Assembly: GCF_014202975.1 (NCBI RefSeq)
Contig: NZ_JACHHZ010000002.1
Location: 496,001 to 560,000 of the forward strand
DNA: 64,000 nucleotides
DNA from: Povalibacter uvarum
GTDB lineage: Bacteria > Pseudomonadota > Gammaproteobacteria > Steroidobacterales > Steroidobacteraceae
Reading direction: 5' to 3'
Positions within the stretch are counted from its first letter, which is position 1; each line of letters opens with the position of its first letter. Below are positions 43,294 to 55,979 of this stretch, in pieces. Under the pieces are notes generated by a model. The model did no database searches. It saw only the letters and a list, made by a program, of their open reading frames with translations, and was not told the origin of the DNA. The position numbers and the translations under genes were made by a program.

Positions 43294-43332
43294 GCCCAGA
43301 ACGTTTCGTTCTGGGCGTTTCGTTCTGTTACC
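43294..43332 (+). terminator. Terminator-like hairpin in the leader of sbp
   Basis: GCCCAGAACG-TTT-CGTTCTGGGC, a perfect 10-bp stem with a 3-nt loop, is followed on the plus strand by GTTTCGTTCTGTTACC. No gene lies upstream on this strand, so it could end a small RNA or act as an attenuator for the sulfate-binding gene about 110 nt downstream. The T tract is interrupted, so efficiency is uncertain. Confidence 0.55.
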
Positions 43333-43429
43333 GCTATTTCACCCGGCGTCGACTGACTCGTCACCCTCGCGCGCATAGCCTTGCCTCCAGCGCATCGCAG
43401 TGCAGCGGACCCCGAGAGAACGTAGAACC

Positions 43430-44431: not shown

Positions 44432-44432
44432 T

Positions 44433-44657
44433 TCAGGCAGGAAGCACCGTCGCTGCGACCGCGACCGTCGTGCTCACCACGAGTACCGCGCCGATAAACT
44501 TAGCGAAGACTCTTCCCAGGCCATCGTTGCTCGCGAGCGCTGGAGCATTCACTTCGACCGCTGCACCTTCGCGTGCTTCGAGCCGGAGCTTGTGAACGTA
44601 GCCGCTGCGATCCGGGCTTGCCCTGCGGTTGGACGGAATGACTGCAATGACGGGCAT
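44433..44657 (-). CDS. Small hypothetical protein with C-terminal membrane helix
   Basis: A possible 74-residue protein: basic N-terminus, then FIGAVLVVSTTVAVAATVLPA as one hydrophobic helix at the C-terminal end. It converges with sbp, with one base between the two stop codons. A weak purine-rich site precedes it. No recognised family; may be a chance frame. Confidence 0.4.
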   Translation of the reverse strand: MPVIAVIPSNRRASPDRSGYVHKLRLEAREGAAVEVNAPALASNDGLGRVFAKFIGAVLVVSTTVAVAATVLPA

Positions 44658-44840
44658 GACTGTCTCGTTCGGCTCGGAAGATTCGGAGTTTCGAGTCTAG
44701 ACAGCGAGCGGTCACGGACGCAGTCGCAGCGCGGTTATGAATGGGTCACCAACTGTGCGGCCTCCGCCCTGGCGAACTGTGGCGTCTCAACGGCAATCCC
44801 CGGCGCTACGCTTGTTTCCTCTACAACAGCGGAGCCGTCG

Positions 44841-45727: not shown

Positions 45728-46432
45728 TTACTCCACCACCAACTTATACCCCGCCCCCGGAGTCGTCTGCAGCACCTGCGGTGTCGCGGGATCGTGCTCG
45801 AGTTTCTGTCGCAACCGATAGATCAACTGCTTCAGCGTCCGCCGTTCGCGCGAGGTTGCACGTCCCCACACATGATTGAGCAAACGTTCGGCGGTGACGG
45901 TTCTGCCGGGGCTCGTCATCAACAGATGCAGTGCCCTGAGCTCGAGCGGCGTCAGTCGGAACGGTTCGCCCGATCCGATGCGAAGGGTCTGCTGCTCGAG
46001 ATCGAGATGGACGTTACCGGCGGCGAGCGAATCGGCGTTCATCGGCTCAGAGCGCCGCACGAGAGCACGAATGCGGGCGAGCAGTGCACGCGGACTGAAT
46101 GGCTTGCGCACGTAGTCATCGGCGCCACTTTCGAGGGCACTGACCAGATCGTCCTCCTGGTCACGCACGGTGAGCATCATGATCGGCACCGTCGAGCGGC
46201 TGCGGATCTCGCGGCAGACTTCGAGGCCGTTCGGCGCCGGCATGTTGATGTCGAGCAGCACGAACTCGGGCGGCTCTTCCGCGAAGGAACGCAGTGCGCC
46301 GGAGCCGTCGTGTGCGGTGCGAACGTCGTAGCCCGCCTGACGCAGGGTGAAGCCGATCAGCGCGAGCAGATCGGCATCGTCATCCGCAATGAGCACCTTC
46401 AAGGGCCGGCTGACCTGAGGTTCGATGGCCAT
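45728..46432 (-). CDS. OmpR/PhoB-type response regulator (second)
   Basis: A 234-residue regulator. Receiver: acidic DDD near residue 17, phospho-acceptor in FVLLDINMPAPN, T in MMLTVRD, K in YVRKPFSP. The winged helix ends in QVLQTTPGAGYKLVVE. It is a paralogue of the regulator at 47.9-48.6 kb (shared DINMP, MMLTVR, PGAGYKLVVE). It is 2 nt after the FAD protein gene, and thus last in the sulfate/sensor unit. It may share the single kinase. Confidence 0.93.
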   Translation of the reverse strand: MAIEPQVSRPLKVLIADDDADLLALIGFTLRQAGYDVRTAHDGSGALRSFAEEPPEFVLLDINMPAPNGLEVCREIRSRSTVPIMMLTVRDQEDDLVSALESGADDYVRKPFSPRALLARIRALVRRSEPMNADSLAAGNVHLDLEQQTLRIGSGEPFRLTPLELRALHLLMTSPGRTVTAERLLNHVWGRATSRERRTLKQLIYRLRQKLEHDPATPQVLQTTPGAGYKLVVE

Positions 46433-46434
46433 GA

Positions 46435-47838
46435 TCAACCGCGCTCCGTCGCAAGCAATGCGGCGAGTTGCTCCGCGTGACCGCGCAGCTCGCCGACTGC
46501 CGTCGCTTCCCAATGATCGGCACGCAACATCGGACCGACGTAGAACAAGTGCGGACCGGGCCAGCCGTCGGCATCCATCACCGCGCCTTTGGGTCCCGTT
46601 CGCAGACCCAGGCCGAGCGGATCAGGCACACACAGCCCCCTCTCCAGCAAATTGCGCCAGAGCGGATCGTTCGAGCGCTCGATCGCGTAATCCGGGCCCG
46701 TGCAGTTCACCACCTGATCGACCGTCAGCGTTTCGGATTGCGCGGCATGCCGCGGACGCCACGTGACTTCGATCCGGCCCGCGCGGGCTTCGAAGCGCTG
46801 GATCCGGCCGGCGTGAATCTGCATCTGTCCGCCGTTACGCAGCGTCTCGATCCGCTGCAGCACGTCCGGTGGAAGGCGATGTCGATGGACTTCCCACTGC
46901 GCGCGCAGGTGCCGCATGAAGCGTTCGCGATCGCGCTCCGGCATGCGCTGCCAGATCGTCGGCGCCATGTGGCGCACGAAAGTGACTGCTTCGCGCCAGT
47001 CGCCTCCGCATCGCTCTGCTTCCGCCGCGAGCAGACGCACTGCGCTCGCCAGCCCCCGCAGCGATCGCGATGCCGCCAGCAGCAATGCATTGCCGTCGCC
47101 CTTGAATGCTTCGGGCCTGAAAGGCGTTTGTCGCGGCGGCAGCAATCCGTGACGCGACAGCGCGTGAATTCTTGGTGTCGTGTGACGATCCGCTGAAGCA
47201 ACGTTCACGATGTCGGCCATCGTGAGACCGGTGCCGATCAGGAGCACCGATTGATGCCGCGCGAACTTCAGGTCCTGCGACCACGGATCCGCCACGTACG
47301 CCGGATTTCCGATGAGCGTTTTCGCTGCAGGAAGAGAAGCCGGTTTCGGATTGCCCAGCGCCAGCACGACATCGTCGGCGGTGAGTTTGCGTCCATCAGC
47401 GAGTTCGAGCTGCAGCGGCAAATGCCGCTCGAGGCGCCGCACTCCACTGACTTCGCCGCGCCAGATCTCCAGGCGGATATTGCTGGGTGCGCTCAGTTCG
47501 GCGGCAAGCAGCACCTGCTGAAGGTATTCCCCGTAGAGCGCCCTCGGCAGAAAGTCCTCACCGGTAGCCTTGGGAATGCGTTCCTGCGCAAAGTGGAGAA
47601 ATTCCTTCGGTGCGAGGGAATTCGCCGACATGCGGCTTGCCGGCACGTTGAGCAGGTATGGGAACCGCCGTTCCGCGTACGCGACACCACGCCCGACCGT
47701 CTCCGATCGTTCGATCAGCACCAGTCGCGTGGGTCCCCGAGGCGGCCGACGCAGGAGATTCGCGGCCACCAGCGTGCCGCTGAAACCTCCGCCGACGATC
47801 GCGATCGTGCGCAGCAATCCCGCCAAGAAACACTCCAC
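46435..47838 (-). CDS. FAD/NAD(P)-binding protein (COG4529-like)
   Basis: A 467-residue flavoprotein with a Rossmann FAD site TIAIVGGGFSGTLVAANLL, the block RFPYLLNVPASRMS, a second dinucleotide site SVLLIGTGLTMADIVN, and VVNCTGPDY near the C-terminus. It resembles uncharacterised NAD(P)-binding FAD oxidoreductases often annotated as hydroxyacylglutathione-hydrolase-like or HpaB-like. The start is uncertain: GTG (used here) or a TTG seven codons later. Embedded between two OmpR-type regulators in the sulfate unit; the electron acceptor is unknown. Confidence 0.85.
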   Translation of the reverse strand: MECFLAGLLRTIAIVGGGFSGTLVAANLLRRPPRGPTRLVLIERSETVGRGVAYAERRFPYLLNVPASRMSANSLAPKEFLHFAQERIPKATGEDFLPRALYGEYLQQVLLAAELSAPSNIRLEIWRGEVSGVRRLERHLPLQLELADGRKLTADDVVLALGNPKPASLPAAKTLIGNPAYVADPWSQDLKFARHQSVLLIGTGLTMADIVNVASADRHTTPRIHALSRHGLLPPRQTPFRPEAFKGDGNALLLAASRSLRGLASAVRLLAAEAERCGGDWREAVTFVRHMAPTIWQRMPERDRERFMRHLRAQWEVHRHRLPPDVLQRIETLRNGGQMQIHAGRIQRFEARAGRIEVTWRPRHAAQSETLTVDQVVNCTGPDYAIERSNDPLWRNLLERGLCVPDPLGLGLRTGPKGAVMDADGWPGPHLFYVGPMLRADHWEATAVGELRGHAEQLAALLATERG

Positions 47839-47919
47839 CTGAATCTGTCGCGGACAGACTAGGTGAAGGGCGGTATCAAGTAAGTAACTGCGAGGTTAGA
47901 GATTGGGAGCGGGTCCCGG

Positions 47920-48594
47920 TCATTCGACGACGAGCTTGTATCCCGCGCCCGGCGCCGTCTGCAGCATCTCCGGCGCCGCGGGATCGATCTCGATCTTCTG
48001 GCGCAGGCGATGCACGAGTTGCTTGAGGAGCTGGCGGTCACCCGATCCCTTGTGTCCCCACACCTGCATCAGCAGGCGATCGGAGCTCACCGTGTGACCG
48101 GCATTCGCGATCAGCATCTGCAACAGGCGCAGTTCGAGCTTCGTGAGGCGCACCGGCGGATTGCCGCCCACCTGCACCGTGTGTTCTTCGACATCCAGCT
48201 GCACGCGACCCGCTGCGAGCGGTGCCGAGTTCTCCATCCCTGCGCGACGCAGCAGCGCTTTCACCCGGGCCAGCAACGTTCTCGGGCTGAACGGCTTCGT
48301 AAGGTAGTCATCCGCGCCGAGTTCCAGGGCCTTCACGAGATCCTCTTCCTCGCCGCGCACGGTGAGCATCATCACCGGCACGCGCGATTTCGCACGGACG
48401 GCTTCGCACACCTGGAAACCGCTCGCACCCGGCATGTTGATGTCGAGAATGACGAGATCGGGTGATTCGGATTCGAACGCCTTGATCGCGCTCGGCCCGT
48501 CACCTGCCTTGACGACAAGATAACCCGCCTGCGAAAGCGTGAACGCGATCAGCGCGAGCAGGTCTTTGTCGTCGTCGGCGGAGAGGATTTTCAT
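47920..48594 (-). CDS. OmpR/PhoB-type response regulator (first)
   Basis: A 224-residue regulator. Receiver: D8/D9, phospho-acceptor in LVILDINMPGASG, T in MMLTVRG, K in YLTKPFSP. The DNA-binding wing starts PVRLTKLELRLLQMLI and ends MLQTAPGAGYKLVVE. It follows the histidine kinase on the same strand (117 nt) and is its likely direct partner. Targets are probably the cys genes upstream, which is inference. Confidence 0.95.
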   Translation of the reverse strand: MKILSADDDKDLLALIAFTLSQAGYLVVKAGDGPSAIKAFESESPDLVILDINMPGASGFQVCEAVRAKSRVPVMMLTVRGEEEDLVKALELGADDYLTKPFSPRTLLARVKALLRRAGMENSAPLAAGRVQLDVEEHTVQVGGNPPVRLTKLELRLLQMLIANAGHTVSSDRLLMQVWGHKGSGDRQLLKQLVHRLRQKIEIDPAAPEMLQTAPGAGYKLVVE

Positions 48595-48711
48595 GAAGAT
48601 GGAGCGACGTGGGTGACGGAAGTGACGACAGTCACTCCCGCCAGAATAAGATGTTGCGACGCAGGCTGTGCATACGAAAGTGGCATGTCGTGGTAACCGG
48701 TTCTGCCTTCG

Positions 48712-50817
48712 TCACTCAGGCTTCGCCTGCATCAGCTCCACCACGAACCTCGTTCGCCCTTCCCTGCGTTCCGCATGGATCGAGCCTTCGTGGCGATTGA
48801 TGATGGATTTGACGATCCACAGACCGAGACCGAGGCCGCCCGGCTCGGGTTCCTGGTCGGGGCCGCGGTAGAAGCGTTCGAAGATCGAACCGCTCTCGAT
48901 CTCCGGGACGCCGGCACCTTCGTCTTCGACCCAGGTCGTCACTGTGTGGCCCGTAGCCGAGGCGCCAATGCGAACGGTGCTGTCCTCGGGCGCGAACTTG
49001 CTGGCATTGGCCAGCAGGTTCACGAACACCTGCGTCAGTCGCGGGCCATCGCCGTCGACACGCGGCAGATCCTCCGGAATATCGAGGACCAGTGTCTGGC
49101 GGCGCTGCTTCAGCAACGCACCGATGAGGGCGTCCGCATCCTCGACGATCTCGGCGATCGCGACGCTCTGGTGCCGGATGCCGAGTTGCCCGGATTCGAT
49201 GCGGACGCTTTCCAGCAGGTTGTCGATCAGGCGCGTGAGCCGCAGTGCACCGCGCTCGAGCGAGAGCACGAGCTCCTTCTGATCGGTGACGGACATCGTA
49301 TCCATGCCTTCCCGCAGCAACTCGATCGAGGCGAGCTGCGCGGCAAGCGGTGTGCGGAATTCGTGTGAGATATTCGCAAGCACTGAATCGCGCGCACGGC
49401 GGACGCCTTCGAGCTCCGTTTCGTCACGAATGACCTGTACCTGCAGGTCGTCGACGGGTGCCGCGCTCGTGATGATGGTCGTGCGCGGCGTTCCTTCTCG
49501 GAGATTGAGCCTCTCGGTCGACTGCGCGCTGCCCTCGGAGCGAGCGTGCAGGATCGGGCAGTTGTTTTCGCACGGCCGCATGCCGTTCTCGGCACAGGGC
49601 TTCAGCACGTCGCCGCAGAAGCGGCCGATCGCTTCATGTGCCTGCACGCCGAGCAATCGCGCCGCTTGCGGGTTCAAGTAGCGAATGACACGGGACTTGT
49701 CGACCGCGTACACGCCCTCGACGATTCCGCCCAGGACCGCCTGTGCCTCCGCTTCGCGCCGTCGCAACGCACCCGTCAGTTCGACGAGGTTGTTGCGCAT
49801 GTCTTCCATCGTGCGACCGAGCTTGCCGACCTCTTTGGTGCCGCCGACGGGGATCGATGTCGAGAAGTCACCGTGACCCAATCGCTCAGCCGCTTCGGTC
49901 AGCGTGCTGACGGGGCCGGTGACCTGCTGCCCAAGGATCACGCCCGCGAGAACCGCGAGCGCCGCCAGTACGATCGCGGTGATGATCAATCGCTTCACGA
50001 GGCTGCCAGTGGATTTGTCGATATCGCCGGCCGGCAGCCGCGCTTCGAGCAGCGCGATGGCTTCACCGGTGGATGCGAAGATGGGGAAGCTGGCGGCGTA
50101 CAGGTCCGCATCGCCGATGCGCGCAACTGCGGAACGGCCATCGGACAATCCCGCGGAATGCAGCCGCGTGAAATCGTCGACGACGCGGTTGTTTACGAAC
50201 GTCCGGTAGCTGATGAGATGAATGCCGAGTCCGACACGATCGCTGAGCAACCGTCCTAGCTTTTCATCCATCAGTCGAGCAACGAAGACGCGTCGCTCGG
50301 TTGCGCCCCCGACCTGCGCGGACGCACCGAGCACCGCACTCCCGGTGTTCGTCGGAACAGCGAGGAAACGCTCGCCCTGCTCCGTCGTTGCCTGCGCGAT
50401 CTCCGCCCATGGCAAAGCAACGCCCGCCTGTGCGACGAGTGAGCGACCCTCGAATACCGCGCACGCAGTGATCGTGTCCGTATTGCATGAACGCCGCAGA
50501 TAGGGACCGATGGCAGCCGCCTGGCGATCCGCCAGCAAGCGCTGCAACGTCGCCCGCTCAGCGACACTCTTCGCATGCGTCAGCGCGTCTTCACCGAAAC
50601 GGCGCAGATCCTCGCGGGCCATCGCGCCAGCCAGCTGCACGCGCGACTTGCCCTGCTGGTCCGCCAGGTCCCGCAGCGAACCGATCGCGGAAATGGAAAT
50701 GCCGCCCACGACCAGGATCACGATCAGCACGTTGATCGCGGCGATCCAGAACCCAAGGCTCGCACGCGACGTGTCGAGCTGGATGCGGTCGATGAATTCC
50801 TGGAGCCTGGAAAGCAT
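48712..50817 (-). CDS. Membrane sensor histidine kinase with HAMP and Cys-rich PAS
   Basis: A 701-residue kinase. Membrane helices at about 22-44 and 275-297 flank a periplasmic sensor of about 230 residues containing a Cys pair (C111 and C119). HAMP follows (300-350), then a PAS domain (about 355-465) with cysteines C401, C408, C416 and C420 (spacing 6, 7, 3). The phospho-acceptor is H485 in NISHEFRTP, and the ATPase has LLANASKFAP, DEGAGVPE and GLGLGLWIVKSI. The four-Cys cluster in the PAS looks like a metal or iron-sulfur site. It lies directly after cysW in the sulfate unit. Confidence 0.93.
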   Translation of the reverse strand: MLSRLQEFIDRIQLDTSRASLGFWIAAINVLIVILVVGGISISAIGSLRDLADQQGKSRVQLAGAMAREDLRRFGEDALTHAKSVAERATLQRLLADRQAAAIGPYLRRSCNTDTITACAVFEGRSLVAQAGVALPWAEIAQATTEQGERFLAVPTNTGSAVLGASAQVGGATERRVFVARLMDEKLGRLLSDRVGLGIHLISYRTFVNNRVVDDFTRLHSAGLSDGRSAVARIGDADLYAASFPIFASTGEAIALLEARLPAGDIDKSTGSLVKRLIITAIVLAALAVLAGVILGQQVTGPVSTLTEAAERLGHGDFSTSIPVGGTKEVGKLGRTMEDMRNNLVELTGALRRREAEAQAVLGGIVEGVYAVDKSRVIRYLNPQAARLLGVQAHEAIGRFCGDVLKPCAENGMRPCENNCPILHARSEGSAQSTERLNLREGTPRTTIITSAAPVDDLQVQVIRDETELEGVRRARDSVLANISHEFRTPLAAQLASIELLREGMDTMSVTDQKELVLSLERGALRLTRLIDNLLESVRIESGQLGIRHQSVAIAEIVEDADALIGALLKQRRQTLVLDIPEDLPRVDGDGPRLTQVFVNLLANASKFAPEDSTVRIGASATGHTVTTWVEDEGAGVPEIESGSIFERFYRGPDQEPEPGGLGLGLWIVKSIINRHEGSIHAERREGRTRFVVELMQAKPE

Positions 50818-50824
50818 GGAAGAA

Positions 50825-50948
50825 GCGGTTAGCGGTTAGCGGTTCGCGGTTGGTTCGGAATAGAGAGAGCTGGCGCACGCATAGCCGTTGGGTATCTCCG
50901 GCTCTGGTCCGGATCTGAACCAACCGCTGACCGCGAACCGCCAACCGC
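50825..50948. repeat. Inverted heptamer arrays (GCGGTTN)x4 and (NNACCGC)x4
   Basis: Left arm: GCGGTTA, GCGGTTA, GCGGTTC, GCGGTTG at 50825-50852. Right arm: CAACCGC, TGACCGC, GAACCGC, CAACCGC at 50921-50948. The arms are inverted relative to each other with a 68-bp spacer. It fills the gap between cysW and the histidine kinase. Confidence 0.93.
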
Positions 50949-50956
50949 TTCGTCCG

Positions 50957-51820
50957 TCACGTCTTTTGTCTCCACTCGATCAGCGACTTGATGATCAATG
51001 TCAGGACCGCCAGCAGCGTGAGCAGTGAGGCGACCGCGAAGGCACCGACGAAATTGTATTCCTGGTAGAGGATTTCCACATGCAGCGGCATGGTCGTCGT
51101 CAGGCCGCGGATGTGGCCGGAGACCACGGAGACGGCGCCGAATTCGCCCATTGCACGAGCATTGCACAGGATCACGCCGTACAGCAGGCCCCAGCGGATC
51201 TTGGGCAGGGTCACGTGGAAGAAGGTCATGATGCCGCCGGCGCCGAGGGTGATGGCGGCCTCCTCTTCGTCGTTGCCCATCTGCTGCATCAACGGGATCA
51301 GTTCGCGGGCGACGTACGGGAACGTCACGAACATCGTCGCGAGGATGATGCCGGGCAGCGCGAAGACGATGCTGATGTCGTGCTCCTGCAGCCACAGGCC
51401 GAACCAGCCCTGCATGCCGAACAGCAGCACGTAGATCAGGCCGGAGATCACGGGCGACACCGCGATCGGCAGGTCGATCAGCGTGATCAGGATGCTCTTG
51501 CCCTTGAACTCGAACTTCGCGATGGCCCACGCAGCCGCGACGCCGAACACTGTGTTGGTCGGAACGACGATCGCCGCCGTGATCAGCGTCAGCCGGATCG
51601 CCGCAATCGTGTCGGGATCGGCGAAGCTGTTGAAGTACATCTCGAAGCCCTTGCTCAGCGCCGTCGCGAACACCGTGATGAGCGGTGCGAACAACAGGGC
51701 CGCAAGGAACAGCAGCGAGAGCGTGATGAACGCGCCCTTGATGACGGAGCTGACGAAAGTGTCGCGCCCCGGCCGGCTCGCGATCTCATCGAGCAGCGCT
51801 CTTGAAGGTCCACCGGCCAT
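50957..51820 (-). CDS. cysW: Sulfate ABC importer permease CysW
   Basis: A 287-residue membrane protein with six or so helices. The coupling loop is [28 protein letters not shown], with the conserved EAA-type Gly. Blocks [59 protein letters not shown] and [19 protein letters not shown] are typical of CysW. With CysT it forms the channel for sulfate or thiosulfate. The downstream 139-bp gap contains the inverted heptamer arrays. Confidence 0.95.
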
Positions 51821-51836
51821 CAGGCGACTCCTCTCG

Positions 51837-51915
51837 GTTGTGGGTCCGACTTCAGTCGGACTCGCTGCGAGGATCGCCTGCGGCGATGACGTCCGGCTGA
51901 AGCCGGACCCACAAC
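51837..51915. repeat. Palindromic intergenic element (GTGGGTCCG type), copy 2
   Basis: Outer arms GTTGTGGGTCCG and CGGACCCACAAC, with inner stems GTCCGAC-TTCA-GTCGGAC and GTCCGGC-TGAA-GCCGGAC. Same family as 36081-36196. Lies between cysT and cysW. Confidence 0.9.
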
Positions 51916-51937
51916 GGGAGGCCGATTCCGTCTCTGG

Positions 51938-51965
51938 CTATCCGCCATCCGCCATCCGCTATCCA
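51938..51965. repeat. Heptamer array x4 (CTATCCG/CCATCCG)
   Basis: CTATCCG, CCATCCG, CCATCCG, CTATCCA in tandem, preceded by TCTCTGG. Lies between the palindromic element and the end of cysT. Confidence 0.85.
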
Positions 51966-51974
51966 CTTCCATCT

Positions 51975-52814
51975 TCACCGCCCCGCCGCCACGTGTCGGC
52001 GACGCCCCCAGGTCTGCAGCAGGTTGATGGACAGCAGCATGACGAACGAGATGACGAGCATCAGGAAACCGATCGCCGCAGCGCCGACGTAGTCGAACTG
52101 TTCGAGCTTGATGACGATCAGCAGCGGTGCGATCTCGGTCTTCATCGGCAGGTTGCCGGCGATGAAGATGACCGAACCGTACTCACCCACGCCGCGCGCG
52201 AACGCCATCGTGAATCCGGTGAGCAGCGCGGGGGTAACCGTCGGCAGGATGATGCGCCGGAAGATCGTGAAGCGTCCCGCGCCGAGGGTTTCCGCCGCGT
52301 CCTCGAGATCGCGCTGCACCTCGACCAGCGCCGGCTGAATCGATCTCACGACGAACGGCAGGCCGATCAGCGTGAGCGCGACGACGACACCGATCCACGT
52401 GTAGGCCACCTTGATGCCGAACGGCGCGAGGTGCTCGCCGATCCAGCCGTTCTCCGCGAAGACTGCGGTCAGCGCGATACCCGACACGGCGGTCGGCAGC
52501 GCAAAAGGCATGTCGATCAGCGCATCGATCAGCTTGCGACCCGGAAAGTCGTAACGCACCAGCGTCCAGGCGATGACGAACCCGAAGATGCCGTTGAGCG
52601 TCGCCGCCAGCAGCGACGCGCCGAAGCTCAGACGAAACGACGCGAGCACGCGCGGATCGAACAGCACGTTCAGGAAATCATCCCAGCCCATCGTCGCCGT
52701 CTTCATCACGAGCGCCGCCAGCGGTATGAGCACCAGCGCGCAGAGGAAGAAGACAGAGAAGCCCAGCGTGAGGCCGAAGCCGGGAAGGATGGAGGGTTGG
52801 CGGAAAGAGGACAT
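51975..52814 (-). CDS. cysT: Sulfate ABC importer permease CysT (CysU)
   Basis: A 279-residue permease. The coupling loop is DLEDAAETLGAGRFTIFRRIILPTVTPALLTG. Other blocks are LSFGASLLAATLNGIFGFVIAWTLVRYDFPGRKLIDALIDMPFALPTAVSGIAL and GVGEYGSVIFIAGNLPMKTEIAPLLI. It pairs with CysW. The start is followed on its upstream side by the REP element and the 52.8-kb heptamer array in the 130-bp gap to sbp. Confidence 0.95.
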   Translation of the reverse strand: MSSFRQPSILPGFGLTLGFSVFFLCALVLIPLAALVMKTATMGWDDFLNVLFDPRVLASFRLSFGASLLAATLNGIFGFVIAWTLVRYDFPGRKLIDALIDMPFALPTAVSGIALTAVFAENGWIGEHLAPFGIKVAYTWIGVVVALTLIGLPFVVRSIQPALVEVQRDLEDAAETLGAGRFTIFRRIILPTVTPALLTGFTMAFARGVGEYGSVIFIAGNLPMKTEIAPLLIVIKLEQFDYVGAAAIGFLMLVISFVMLLSINLLQTWGRRRHVAAGR

Positions 52815-52825
52815 ACGGACTAGCT

Positions 52826-52853
52826 GTGAGCGGTGAGCGATGAGCGGCGAGCC
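52826..52853. repeat. Heptamer array x4 (GTGAGCG/ATGAGCG)
   Basis: GTGAGCG, GTGAGCG, ATGAGCG, GCGAGCC in tandem, 12 bp upstream of the cysT start and next to the REP-like element. Confidence 0.8.
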
Positions 52854-52861
52854 CGAAGTCC

Positions 52862-52928
52862 GTCATTGCCGCGCAAGCGGGAATCCATGCCTTTCGCCGA
52901 GATGGATTCCCGCGTGCGCGGGAATGAC
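52862..52928. repeat. REP-like double hairpin, copy 2
   Basis: ATTGCCGC-GCAA-GCGGGAAT and ATTCCCGC-GTGC-GCGGGAAT with the same spacing as at 15840-15905. Lies between sbp and cysT. Confidence 0.9.
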
Positions 52929-52944
52929 GAGTGGCTAGCGCGCA

Positions 52945-54021
52945 TCACTGCGCCCCCGCCTGATAAATGCGATCAAACACTCCGCCATCCGCGAAGTGCT
53001 TCGCATGCGCCGCACTCCAGCCACCGAAGACTTCGTCGATCGTGAACGTCGGCAGCGTCGGGAACAGCTCGCCGTACTTGGCGAGGATCTCTGGCTTGCG
53101 CGGACGGAAATAGTGCTTCGCCGCGAGTTCCTGGCCTGCATCCGAATAGAGATGCTGCAGGTACGCTTCGGCGATCTGCCGGGTGCCGCGACGATCGACC
53201 ACGGTGTCGACTACTGCGACGGGGGGCTCCGCGAGAATCGTGATCGACGGAATCACGATCTCGACTTTGTCGGGTCCAAGCTCCTTGAGTGCGAGCAGTG
53301 CCTCGTTCTCCCACGCAATCAGGACGTCACCGATCTCGCGCTGCACGAACGTATTCGTCGCGCCACGCGCGCCACTGTCGAGCACAGGCGTGTGACGATA
53401 GATTTCTCCGACGAATCTCTCCGCCGAAGCCTGCGCCTCTTCCACCTGCGCGGCGTTCGCGGGATCGTCGAGCTTCGACCAGTCGCCGAGCTGACGATGC
53501 AGCTCGTAGCCCCACGCCGCGAGATAGTTCCAGCGTGCTCCGCCGGACGTCTTCGGGTTCGGCGTCACTACGCTGACGCCCTCGCGAACGAGATCCGGCC
53601 AGTCGCGAATCTGCTTCGGATTGCCTTTGCGCACCAGGAACACGATCGTCGATGTGTAGGGCGCGCTGTTGTTGGGAAAGCGGGTCTGCCAGTTGGCGCC
53701 GAGCCGCTTGCCCTTCTCCTGGATGGAATTGATGTCGTAAGCGAGCGCTAGTGTCACGACATCCGCGTCGAGTCCGTCGATCACCGCGCGAGCCTGACTG
53801 CCCGAGCCGCTGTGCGACTGTTTGATCGTCACGCGCTGCCCTGTCTGCTGCTGCCATTGGCGCGCGAAATCCTCGTTGAAATCCCTGTAGAGCTCACGCG
53901 TCGGGTCGTAGCTGACATTGAGCAGCGTGACACTCTTGTCGTCGGAGGAACCACAGCCGGCGAGAGTGAGGATCGACAGCAGCGTGACGAACGCCGTGCG
54001 CAAGGATGGTGAGAGGTTCAT
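52945..54021 (-). CDS. sbp: Sulfate-binding lipoprotein of the importer
   Basis: A 358-residue Sbp/CysP-family binding protein. The signal ends in LTLAGC, with the lipidated Cys at 23, so the mature protein should be anchored in a membrane. Conserved blocks are [86 protein letters not shown] and [18 protein letters not shown]. It delivers sulfate or thiosulfate to CysT/CysW. The start overlaps the cysA stop as ATGA, so the two are co-translated. Confidence 0.95.
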
Positions 54022-55799
54022 CGCTCGTTCGCTCCGCTGGAGCCCGCCGGCCGATAGACGACCATGAGTGCGAAGGGCGGGGGGGTGGAAAACAGCGCCG
54101 CGAAGTTCTGATGCAGGTCGGCGAGATCGGAAATGCCCAGGATCAGCATCTGGTCCGGTGCGTCGTTCAGTTGCCGGCGCAGTTCTTCGGCGGCGGAACC
54201 GAATCGCAACTCCGTGCGCATTTCGAGACCATGCATCGCCTGCGCTTCGGAGCGTGCATCGAGCAATGTGCGCATGCCGACGGGCCGCTGAGTGTCCGAT
54301 GCGCCCTCCGGCAGGATGCCCACGTAAACCGCTTCGGCTGAAACGTGCCGCAGCAGGCTGGCTGCAACCGCAAGCGTCGGTCGACGCGCCGCGTCGTTCG
54401 CCCAGTGAATGAGAACCCGCTGCGGCGGCAGCAACTGCTCCGGCAGCACGAGAACTTCAGCCGCGCCATTGCGCAGCAGCCATTCGATCTGCTTGGCCGT
54501 ATCCACGCCAGGCGTGACGACGGCGACACCGGAGATCGGCGTTTCGGCATCGGTGCCCTCGGCAAGCGCGGGCTCCGTGCGCGTCGCGATGCGTGTCTTC
54601 ATGCGACTCGCGAGTTCCGTCAGGAAAGGATGCGAGGCCAGGCGTTCCGCAGCGGCCTTCTGCGTGGCACACACCGTGTAGCTCGACAATGGCGTCGGCA
54701 ATACGTGAATCCTGCGCACGCCAAGCGCGACCGATTGTCCGAGCGTCACCGGGAATGTGCGCTGCTCGTGCTGCGTCCGCGTCACCTCGAGCATCGCAGT
54801 ACTCGCTGCAGCGTCACCGGGCGGTGTGATCTGTGCTTCCGCGGCGCCATTGGTCAATCGCACACGCAGTCGCTCGAGCGCGCCGGTGAACACCATCTCT
54901 TCGACCACACCGAGTCCCATGTAGTTGACGCGCAGATTGTCGCGCGTCGGCGCAAGCTCGATCTCTTCCGGACGAAGCACTGCAACGACTTCGTGCTCGC
55001 GCGTGCCATCGATCTTTTCGAGCGCACGAATGTTTACGGGCGTGGCACCGAAGCGAATGCCCTGCGCCGTCTGACGTGCCAGCAGCAGATTCGCGGCACC
55101 GAGGAACGTCGCGACGAATCGCGTTGCCGGTCGTGCGTAAAGCTCGTCGGGCTTGCCGCATTCGAGCAGCCGGCCGAGATTCATGACACCGATGCGATCC
55201 GCGAGCGCGAAAGCTTCTTCCTGGTCATGCGTCACCAGCACCGTGGTGATGTTCAGCTCACGCTGCACCTGGCGGATCGTGCGGCGCAGCTCTTCGCGGA
55301 TCTTGGCATCGAGCGCACCGAACGGCTCGTCCAGCAGCAGTACCTGGGGCTTGTGAGCCAGCGCGCGTGCAACCGCCACTCGCTGCTGCTGGCCGCCGGA
55401 CAACTGCGTCGGCAACCGGTCATCCATTCCTTCCAGAGCGACGAGCCGGAGCAGTTCCTTGCGACGGGCCAGCCGGTCAGCGGCTTTCATGCGGCGCACC
55501 CGCAAGGCAAACTCGATGTTGTCGCCGACGGTCATGTGCCGGAACAGCGCGTAGTTCTGGAACACCAGGCCGACGCCGCGCTGGCGGGCGGAAATATGCG
55601 TCACATCGCGACCGTGCAGCGCGATCCGGCCGTGATCGACCCCCGTCAACCCGGCGATGGCGCGCAGCAGCGTGCTCTTGCCGCTGCCGCTGGGACCGAG
55701 CAGTACGAAGAACTCGCCTTCGCCGACGTCCACCGAGACGTCATTGACTACGGGCGACCCCTGATACCGTTTGGTGACTTGATCGAGGGTAATGGACAT
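54018..55799 (-). CDS. cysA: Sulfate importer ATPase CysA fused to a USP-like domain
   Basis: A 593-residue protein; ordinary CysA has about 360. Residues 1-235 are the ATPase: Walker [10 protein letters not shown] (35-43), Q-loop [10 protein letters not shown], signature LSGGQQQR (133-140), Walker B LLLDEPFG (154-161) and H191. Residues about 240-355 are the TOBE/regulatory part ([25 protein letters not shown]). The remaining 200 or so residues are extra and resemble a universal-stress-protein fold: [37 protein letters not shown] and QMLILGIS. It heads the sulfate unit and is divergent from the HerA-like gene. USP domains bind ATP or AMP, so energy-state control of the importer is a reasonable guess. 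Confidence 0.92.
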
Positions 55800-55979
55800 A
55801 GGGGCGGCACTTTAGCGACCCGCGGGTAGTAAGGTCAGTCTCTGCCCGGTGACAAAACGGTTATAGAAGAGTGATCCGCCGATAACACTGCGGACGCTGG
55901 ACGGGCGGTTGACCGTAGGCCATCGACGGTCGACAGTCCGAATGCCCTTGCAAACGCCCAACCGGACGAACGCTCAACG

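Follow-up and report, generated by a model that had tools for sequence, protein, structure and literature searches.

How is sulfate uptake controlled in a bacterium whose sulfate importer is encoded in one row with a sensor kinase and response regulators? The question is raised by a 64,000-nt stretch of the Povalibacter uvarum genome (positions 496,001 to 560,000 of contig NZ_JACHHZ010000002.1), which we will call the window. The usual teaching is that the LysR-type regulator CysB governs sulfate uptake in Proteobacteria, as in the available text of PMC4501297. An earlier reading of this DNA, made without database searches (the sequence-only reading), described eight same-strand genes: cysA, sbp1, cysT, cysW, a sensor histidine kinase, the OmpR-type response regulator RR1, a flavoprotein, and a second OmpR-type regulator, RR2. 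It proposed that all eight form a dedicated sulfur- or redox-sensing circuit. Coordinates and family models confirm the genes, their order and families, the 4-nt overlap of cysA and sbp1, and the 2-nt spacing of the flavoprotein and RR2 genes. We consider it likely that the importer does have a dedicated two-component system, built like the Pst/PhoR/PhoB system for phosphate, with the kinase and RR1 as its members. Genetic linkage, co-occurrence, the distribution of a direct-repeat box, and predicted folds argue for this; that RR1 binds the box, and what is sensed, we infer.

To examine the distribution of the kinase, we searched 246 genomes of the order with its sensor-HAMP-PAS part. (Some match at E ≤ 1e-6 was found in 170 genomes; we counted the kinase as present at E ≤ 5e-81 with the sensor covered.) The kinase is present in 32 genomes, and the next-best match is at 7e-13. 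CysW (TIGR02140) is present in 40 genomes, in 39 of them above the curated cut-off. Both proteins are found in 30 genomes, the kinase alone in two (G156 and G070), and CysW alone in 10 (Fisher p = 1.2e-27 across these 246 related genomes). The sequence-only reading had named a kinase that lacks cys genes in most relatives as the finding that would count against it, and the opposite is seen: the kinase gene directly adjoins cysTW in 30/32 genomes.

We then compared 31 kinase neighborhoods, all 10 CysW-only genomes, the window, and two named loci from metagenome-assembled genomes (L078 and L081). Two loci, L079 and L082, duplicate genomes already included and were not counted; nor were the short contig L080, the unrelated kinase match L083, or the kinase-only loci L076 and L077. 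This left 32 clusters with kinase and importer. The order and strand of cysA-cysT-cysW-kinase-RR1 are kept in all 32. (Contig ends truncate L054 and L074, leaving 4 of the 5 core genes visible, and both cysT and the kinase of L073 are broken across frames.) No more than 25 nt separate cysW from the kinase in 29 clusters, including one (L062) through an over-long start choice, and in 20/31 the kinase and RR1 genes share exactly 4 nt. The position of sbp varies: it may be in line, convergent, or divergent. By gene content and order, these five core genes are one conserved same-strand unit. In a tree of CysT and CysW (built by a quick method), the kinase-bearing L072 and L075 are placed among kinase-free clusters, which gives three label changes; this placement is unsure, with long branches.

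Nearly all of the kinase-bearing clusters also share a predicted regulatory site. Upstream of cysA is a direct repeat with 11-bp spacing, TRTMACC-N4-TGTMACC-N8-ACYGAC. In 34 aligned sites there are two TRTMACC-type half-sites 11 bp apart, with AC(T/C) another 11 bp on. We searched for this box genome-wide with IUPAC patterns, and we applied a weight matrix to the fetched loci. Above 16 bits, the matrix finds the box before cysA in 30 of the 31 clusters whose cysA upstream region is on the contig (the exception is L075), in 0/10 CysW-only loci, and in 0/2 kinase-only loci; no site in 20 simulated 64-kb sequences exceeded 14 bits. Matches of the matrix before cysA are by construction, as cysA promoters were its training set.

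The pattern search across the 42 genomes with the kinase or CysW is an independent test of how this predicted site is distributed. Allowing at most one mismatch to TRTNACCNNNNTGTNACCNNNNNNNNACYGAC, we found 23 sites; the reversed pattern had no match. The box is present in 18/30 genomes with kinase and CysW, in 0/2 with the kinase only, and in 0/10 with CysW only (18/30 versus 0/12, Fisher p = 0.0003). The gene that follows is cysA for 13 sites, a sulfate-binding protein for 7, Porin_O_P for 2, and unexplained for 1 (G201:C92). Four of the 7 sulfate-binding protein genes are sbp genes that adjoin the cluster; the other three are on other contigs of G099 and G205 or are sbp2 of P. uvarum. The two Porin_O_P sites are in G227 and in G245, where the porin gene is followed by sbp; Porin_O_P genes also lie within the clusters of L066 and L072.

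P. uvarum itself has two such sites: box 1, before cysA, and box 2, before sbp2. This second sulfate-binding protein gene, which the sequence-only reading overlooked, is convergent to the cluster near its other end, and its product is 46% identical to Sbp1. Within the window, the matrix gives sites at 43326 (24.1 bits, box 2), 44720 (20.0), 7830 (14.6), and 43231 (14.2); in the other loci, its further matches include sites at sbp and porin genes. When three mismatches were allowed in six genomes, 11 sites were found, and the reversed control gave 1. Six of the 11 precede cysA; the others are box 2, the G205 site, one before a Porin_O_P gene (G217), one before a TonB-receptor gene (P. uvarum), and one unassigned (G217). 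That TonB-receptor gene and its weak box (three mismatches) follow a CysB orthologue within C2:485589-488620 (L103). We rejected a TonB-dependent receptor as the target of the G205 site; there, the box faces the opposite way, onto a sulfate-binding protein gene. A direct repeat with an 11-bp period before importer genes is a predicted site of the Pst-PhoR-PhoB type.

The kinase and RR1 have an orthodox two-component make-up, with HisKA and HATPase domains in the kinase and Response_reg and Trans_reg_C in RR1. The kinase is the sole full-length match in its own genome. Across 33 kinases, the H-box reads HEFRTPL in 32 and HE[FL]RTP in all, and the PAS cysteines C401, C416, and C420 are invariant. 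By predicted fold, the sensor is a LuxQ-like double-Cache domain. RR1 resembles the PhoB and MtrA models, and both proteins score below the cut-offs of the equivalog models: 155.9 of the 334.2 bits needed for PhoR (the kinase) and 181.6 of the 296.2 bits needed for PhoB (RR1). Also, no member of the PhoU family is among the eight proteins of the row. Because of these scores and the lack of PhoU in the unit, we do not file the system under PhoR/PhoB. Beyond the order, a single-protein search with the kinase sensor (E ≤ 1e-20) matched 2 of 369 genomes of the class, both from the window's genus, with few candidates scored per genome. A sensor profile matched 81 of 350 class genomes; among the matches listed outside the window's genus, with few candidates scored per genome, matches start at profile position 192 or later and cover the second transmembrane helix (TM2) and HAMP, and no more of the sensor than its last part.

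CysA is also distinctive. Comparison of predicted folds identifies a tandem universal stress protein (USP) domain at its C-terminus, to which Pfam's Usp family gives no match at E ≤ 0.001. CysT, CysW, and the sulfate-binding proteins pass curated cut-offs, and CysA is below them (317.5 versus 342.75 bits for TIGR00968, 308.8 versus 502 for PRK10851); it is a long variant with a C-terminal domain. In kinase-bearing clusters, CysA is 570-623 amino acids long where the full frame could be read (593 in the window). In contrast, it has 351-371 amino acids in the seven kinase-free loci with a complete CysA. (Of the other three kinase-free loci, one is cut by a contig end, one has no CysA in line, and one has a broken and long CysA.) The tandem USP is found in 32/246 genomes, 30 of which have the kinase, and 30/32 kinase genomes have the USP extension. 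Outside the order, a match to the extension was found in 2 of the 369 genomes of the class, of the same genus as the window, with few candidates scored per genome. Among the matches listed from the open-licence literature, we recognised no CysA-USP fusion.

Are the flavoprotein and RR2 integral to the circuit, as the sequence-only reading had it? The 2-nt spacing of their genes, and the invariant PAS cysteines, would fit a single eight-gene redox/sulfur circuit. The flavoprotein is part of sulfate loci in some relatives, since its gene ends 42 nt before sbp in G219 (L062) and a box-like site (19.2 bits; L057 5610-5640, minus strand) directly precedes it in G213. Elsewhere its neighbors are mixed (homocysteine methyltransferase, glutathione S-transferase, and others). 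Yet the two genes follow RR1 in just 3/30 genomes (P. uvarum, G233, and G217) and in the metagenomic locus L081, and RR2 was seen in no other of the loci compared. The flavoprotein is present in 16/42 genomes: 10/32 with the kinase and 6/10 CysW genomes without it. Because both proteins are absent from most relatives, we reject the eight-gene unit as such, and we consider an eight-gene circuit very improbable. By their distribution, the flavoprotein and RR2 are lineage-specific add-ons. The part of the original proposal that stands is a sensor and regulator tied to the importer.

Several observations weigh against a dedicated two-component system for sulfate. The genome counts are not independent because the genomes are related. 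G156 and G070 (L076 and L077) lack CysW and the box but retain the two-component pair; their kinase and RR1 genes keep the 4-nt overlap, their sensor residues have diverged, and the tested neighbors of the L077 kinase gave no sulfur function. Conversely, G085 and G207 have a tandem-USP CysA without the kinase. Twelve of the 30 genomes with kinase and CysW lack a site with at most one mismatch, although most of these have a weaker site before cysA by the weight matrix (L075, from G158, has none). Matrix sites above 16 bits are found without an assigned gene at L051:19676, L068:15578, and L073:2111. Where sbp is located separately (14 genes), the 220 bp upstream contain a site above 16 bits in just 4 cases; of the other ten, three share a divergent region with the box of cysA and seven have none there, though the sbp of L053 follows a boxed porin gene. 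In the window, five junctions of the eight-gene row are 81-154 nt wide, and because such gaps part several genes, a single transcript is not certain. Finally, the attribution of the box to RR1, and not to some other factor, is inferred from co-occurrence and from the OmpR/PhoB-like form of the repeat.

One candidate for such another factor is CysB. With CysB from Escherichia coli as the query (E ≤ 1e-30), we found CysB-like matches in 41 of the 42 genomes, which also counts against our interpretation; G118 has none and G108 only a fragment. P. uvarum has two orthologues, which share 53% and 54% identity with the E. coli protein. So the earlier remark that no CysB lies nearby holds inside the window and fails for the genome, where one orthologue is about 9 kb left of the window. 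Given this, the kinase and RR1 might merely be carried beside the importer and serve another purpose, with the repeat bound by another factor such as CysB or a PhoB paralogue. The resemblance of RR1 to the PhoB and MtrA models, and of the box to the Pho box, would suit this explanation, as would the two genomes that keep the pair without importer or box. But CysB is present in 9/10 kinase-free CysW genomes (all except G118), yet the box is in 0/10 of them at one mismatch or less. Also, none of the 22 gene-assigned sites is followed by a gene for phosphate transport, barring a phosphate role of the Porin_O_P genes, and 11-bp head-to-tail repeats are the expected form of site for OmpR/PhoB-type regulators. 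We think a bystander pair is unlikely. Because CysB-like proteins are so widespread, the kinase need not substitute for CysB; the two-component system is likely a second layer on sulfate uptake, added beside CysB.

How might a dedicated sulfate system work? When sulfate is scarce, the kinase would phosphorylate RR1; we base this direction on the logic of uptake genes. RR1 would bind as a dimer, head to tail, to the repeat that lies just before the -10 element, and would activate the uptake genes, including its own operon. If TAAAGT is the -10 element, then the box spans roughly -63 to -32, which would fit an activator of the PhoB kind. With this hexamer only ~10 nt before the ATG, the cysA transcript may have almost no leader. 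In several relatives, the distance from a -10-like hexamer to the cysA start looks similarly short.

The state of sulfate supply would most likely reach the kinase from the importer itself, through the USP domain fused to CysA (as PhoU acts between PstB and PhoR), through a sulfate-loaded binding protein that touches the LuxQ-like Cache domain, or both. The cysteine-bearing PAS may contribute a redox or thiol signal from the cytosol. In a more far-reaching version, which is possible rather than probable, the CysA USP would be a built-in, PhoU-like relay that sets the kinase, the PAS with its three cysteines would report the redox or thiol state of the cytosol, and RR1 would drive the importer, the binding proteins, and an anion porin. 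The tandem USP would perhaps bind a nucleotide of sulfur activation such as adenosine 5'-phosphosulfate. If true, this would be the sulfate counterpart of Pst/PhoU/PhoR/PhoB. For Fe-S sensing by the PAS, we saw no matching report among the matches listed from the open-licence literature, as far as their available text goes.

Alternatively, in the same circuit, the double-Cache domain could sense sulfate or another anion directly, with no need for CysA or Sbp. Cache domains commonly bind small ligands directly, and the 42 Foldseek matches of the sensor (E ≤ 0.001) include many ligand-bound chemoreceptor domains. On the other hand, the CysA USP and the kinase track each other (30/32 genomes each way), and the kinases of G156 and G070 lack conserved sensor residues such as EQGERF; both observations only suggest coupling. 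We regard direct sensing as somewhat doubtful.

By analogy, Pst/PhoU/PhoR/PhoB is the nearest system in working mode to the one that we propose. Both have an ABC importer for a nutrient anion, a membrane kinase with a PAS domain, and an OmpR/PhoB-type regulator (as described in the available text of PMC9239213 and PMC5775613). In the window, the genes are for sulfate, the box reads TGTMACC, and a tandem USP is fused to the ATPase. The Pho system also has an 11-bp direct-repeat box before its importer genes and a porin in its regulon. PhoR lacks a large periplasmic domain, unlike our kinase with its double Cache. The importer families are shared with CysTWA-Sbp under CysB, such as SbpCysUWA of Xanthomonas citri (PMC4501297, available text), and CysB orthologues are present here too; the differences are that our unit includes kinase and regulator genes and begins with cysA. 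Compared with LuxPQ, which senses autoinducer-2 in Vibrio, the sensor has ~10% identity and many other Cache proteins tie within 1-2 Z; the resemblance is of fold only. LuxQ is, moreover, of the hybrid kinase type and has different outputs. TeaD, of the ectoine importer TeaABC, is a separate single USP that works with a tripartite ATP-independent periplasmic (TRAP) transporter, whereas here a tandem USP is fused to an ABC ATPase.

What is new here is the 11-bp-spaced repeat box, the tandem USP on CysA, and the kinase's combination of a LuxQ-like double Cache with a three-cysteine PAS. We recognised no two-component system of sulfate uptake among the matches listed from the open-licence PMC literature. 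Our results suggest that sulfate uptake in Steroidobacter-like bacteria is controlled much as phosphate uptake is elsewhere. If so, the phosphate-type logic of importer as sensor, kinase, repeat box, and porin has been reused for a second anion, and the USP fusion would tie an ABC importer to a kinase in a compact way that can be tested.

Table. Features of the sulfate locus (window positions) and the CysB orthologues (contig positions).
Feature	Position	Strand	Basis or remark
cysA, sulfate ABC ATPase, 593 aa, C-terminal tandem USP extension	54018..55799	-	family models
CysA tandem USP domain, about residues 374-582	54054..54680	-	fold comparison
sbp1, sulfate-binding protein	52945..54021	-	TIGR00971 2.1e-137
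cysT, sulfate permease	51975..52814	-	TIGR02139 3.2e-120
cysW, sulfate permease	50957..51820	-	TIGR02140 2.6e-118
Sensor histidine kinase: TM, periplasmic double-Cache, TM, HAMP, Cys-rich PAS, HisKA, HATPase	48712..50817	-	
PAS cysteine motif FCGDVL..RPC...CPI (C401, C416, C420) in kinase	49552..49617	-	
RR1, OmpR/PhoB-type response regulator, core member	47920..48594	-	
FAD/NAD(P)-binding flavoprotein (PF13454), accessory	46435..47838	-	
RR2, OmpR-type regulator, accessory	45728..46432	-	58% identical to RR1
Box 1, upstream of cysA, TATAACC-N4-TGTCACC plus ACTGAC (predicted)	55834..55865	-	
-10-like TAAAGT, ~10 nt before cysA ATG	55809..55814	-	guess from position
Box 2, upstream of sbp2 (predicted)	43326..43357	+	
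sbp2, second sulfate-binding protein, 333 aa	43430..44431	+	TIGR00971 8.5e-129 (frame from GTG 43400)
CysB orthologue	C3:137215-138180		
CysB orthologue	C2:485967-486935		about 9 kb left of window

A small open reading frame for 74 amino acids (44432-44656, minus strand) looks as if it encodes a single transmembrane segment, and the box-like site at 44720-44750 (20.0 bits) precedes it; its own copy aside, it has no tblastn match in the other loci examined. In G085 (L094), the sulfate cluster has no kinase and has broken cysA, cysW, and sbp frames, which looks like decay or an assembly error. The intergenic regions at 51821-51974 and 50818-50956 are rich in repeats (for instance, GGTCCGACTTCAGTCGGAC..GTCCGGCTGAAGCCGGAC) that by eye resemble repetitive extragenic palindromic (REP) elements. 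The same two gaps are a few bases wide in most relatives, and a similar REP-like repeat is found upstream of cysA in L078.

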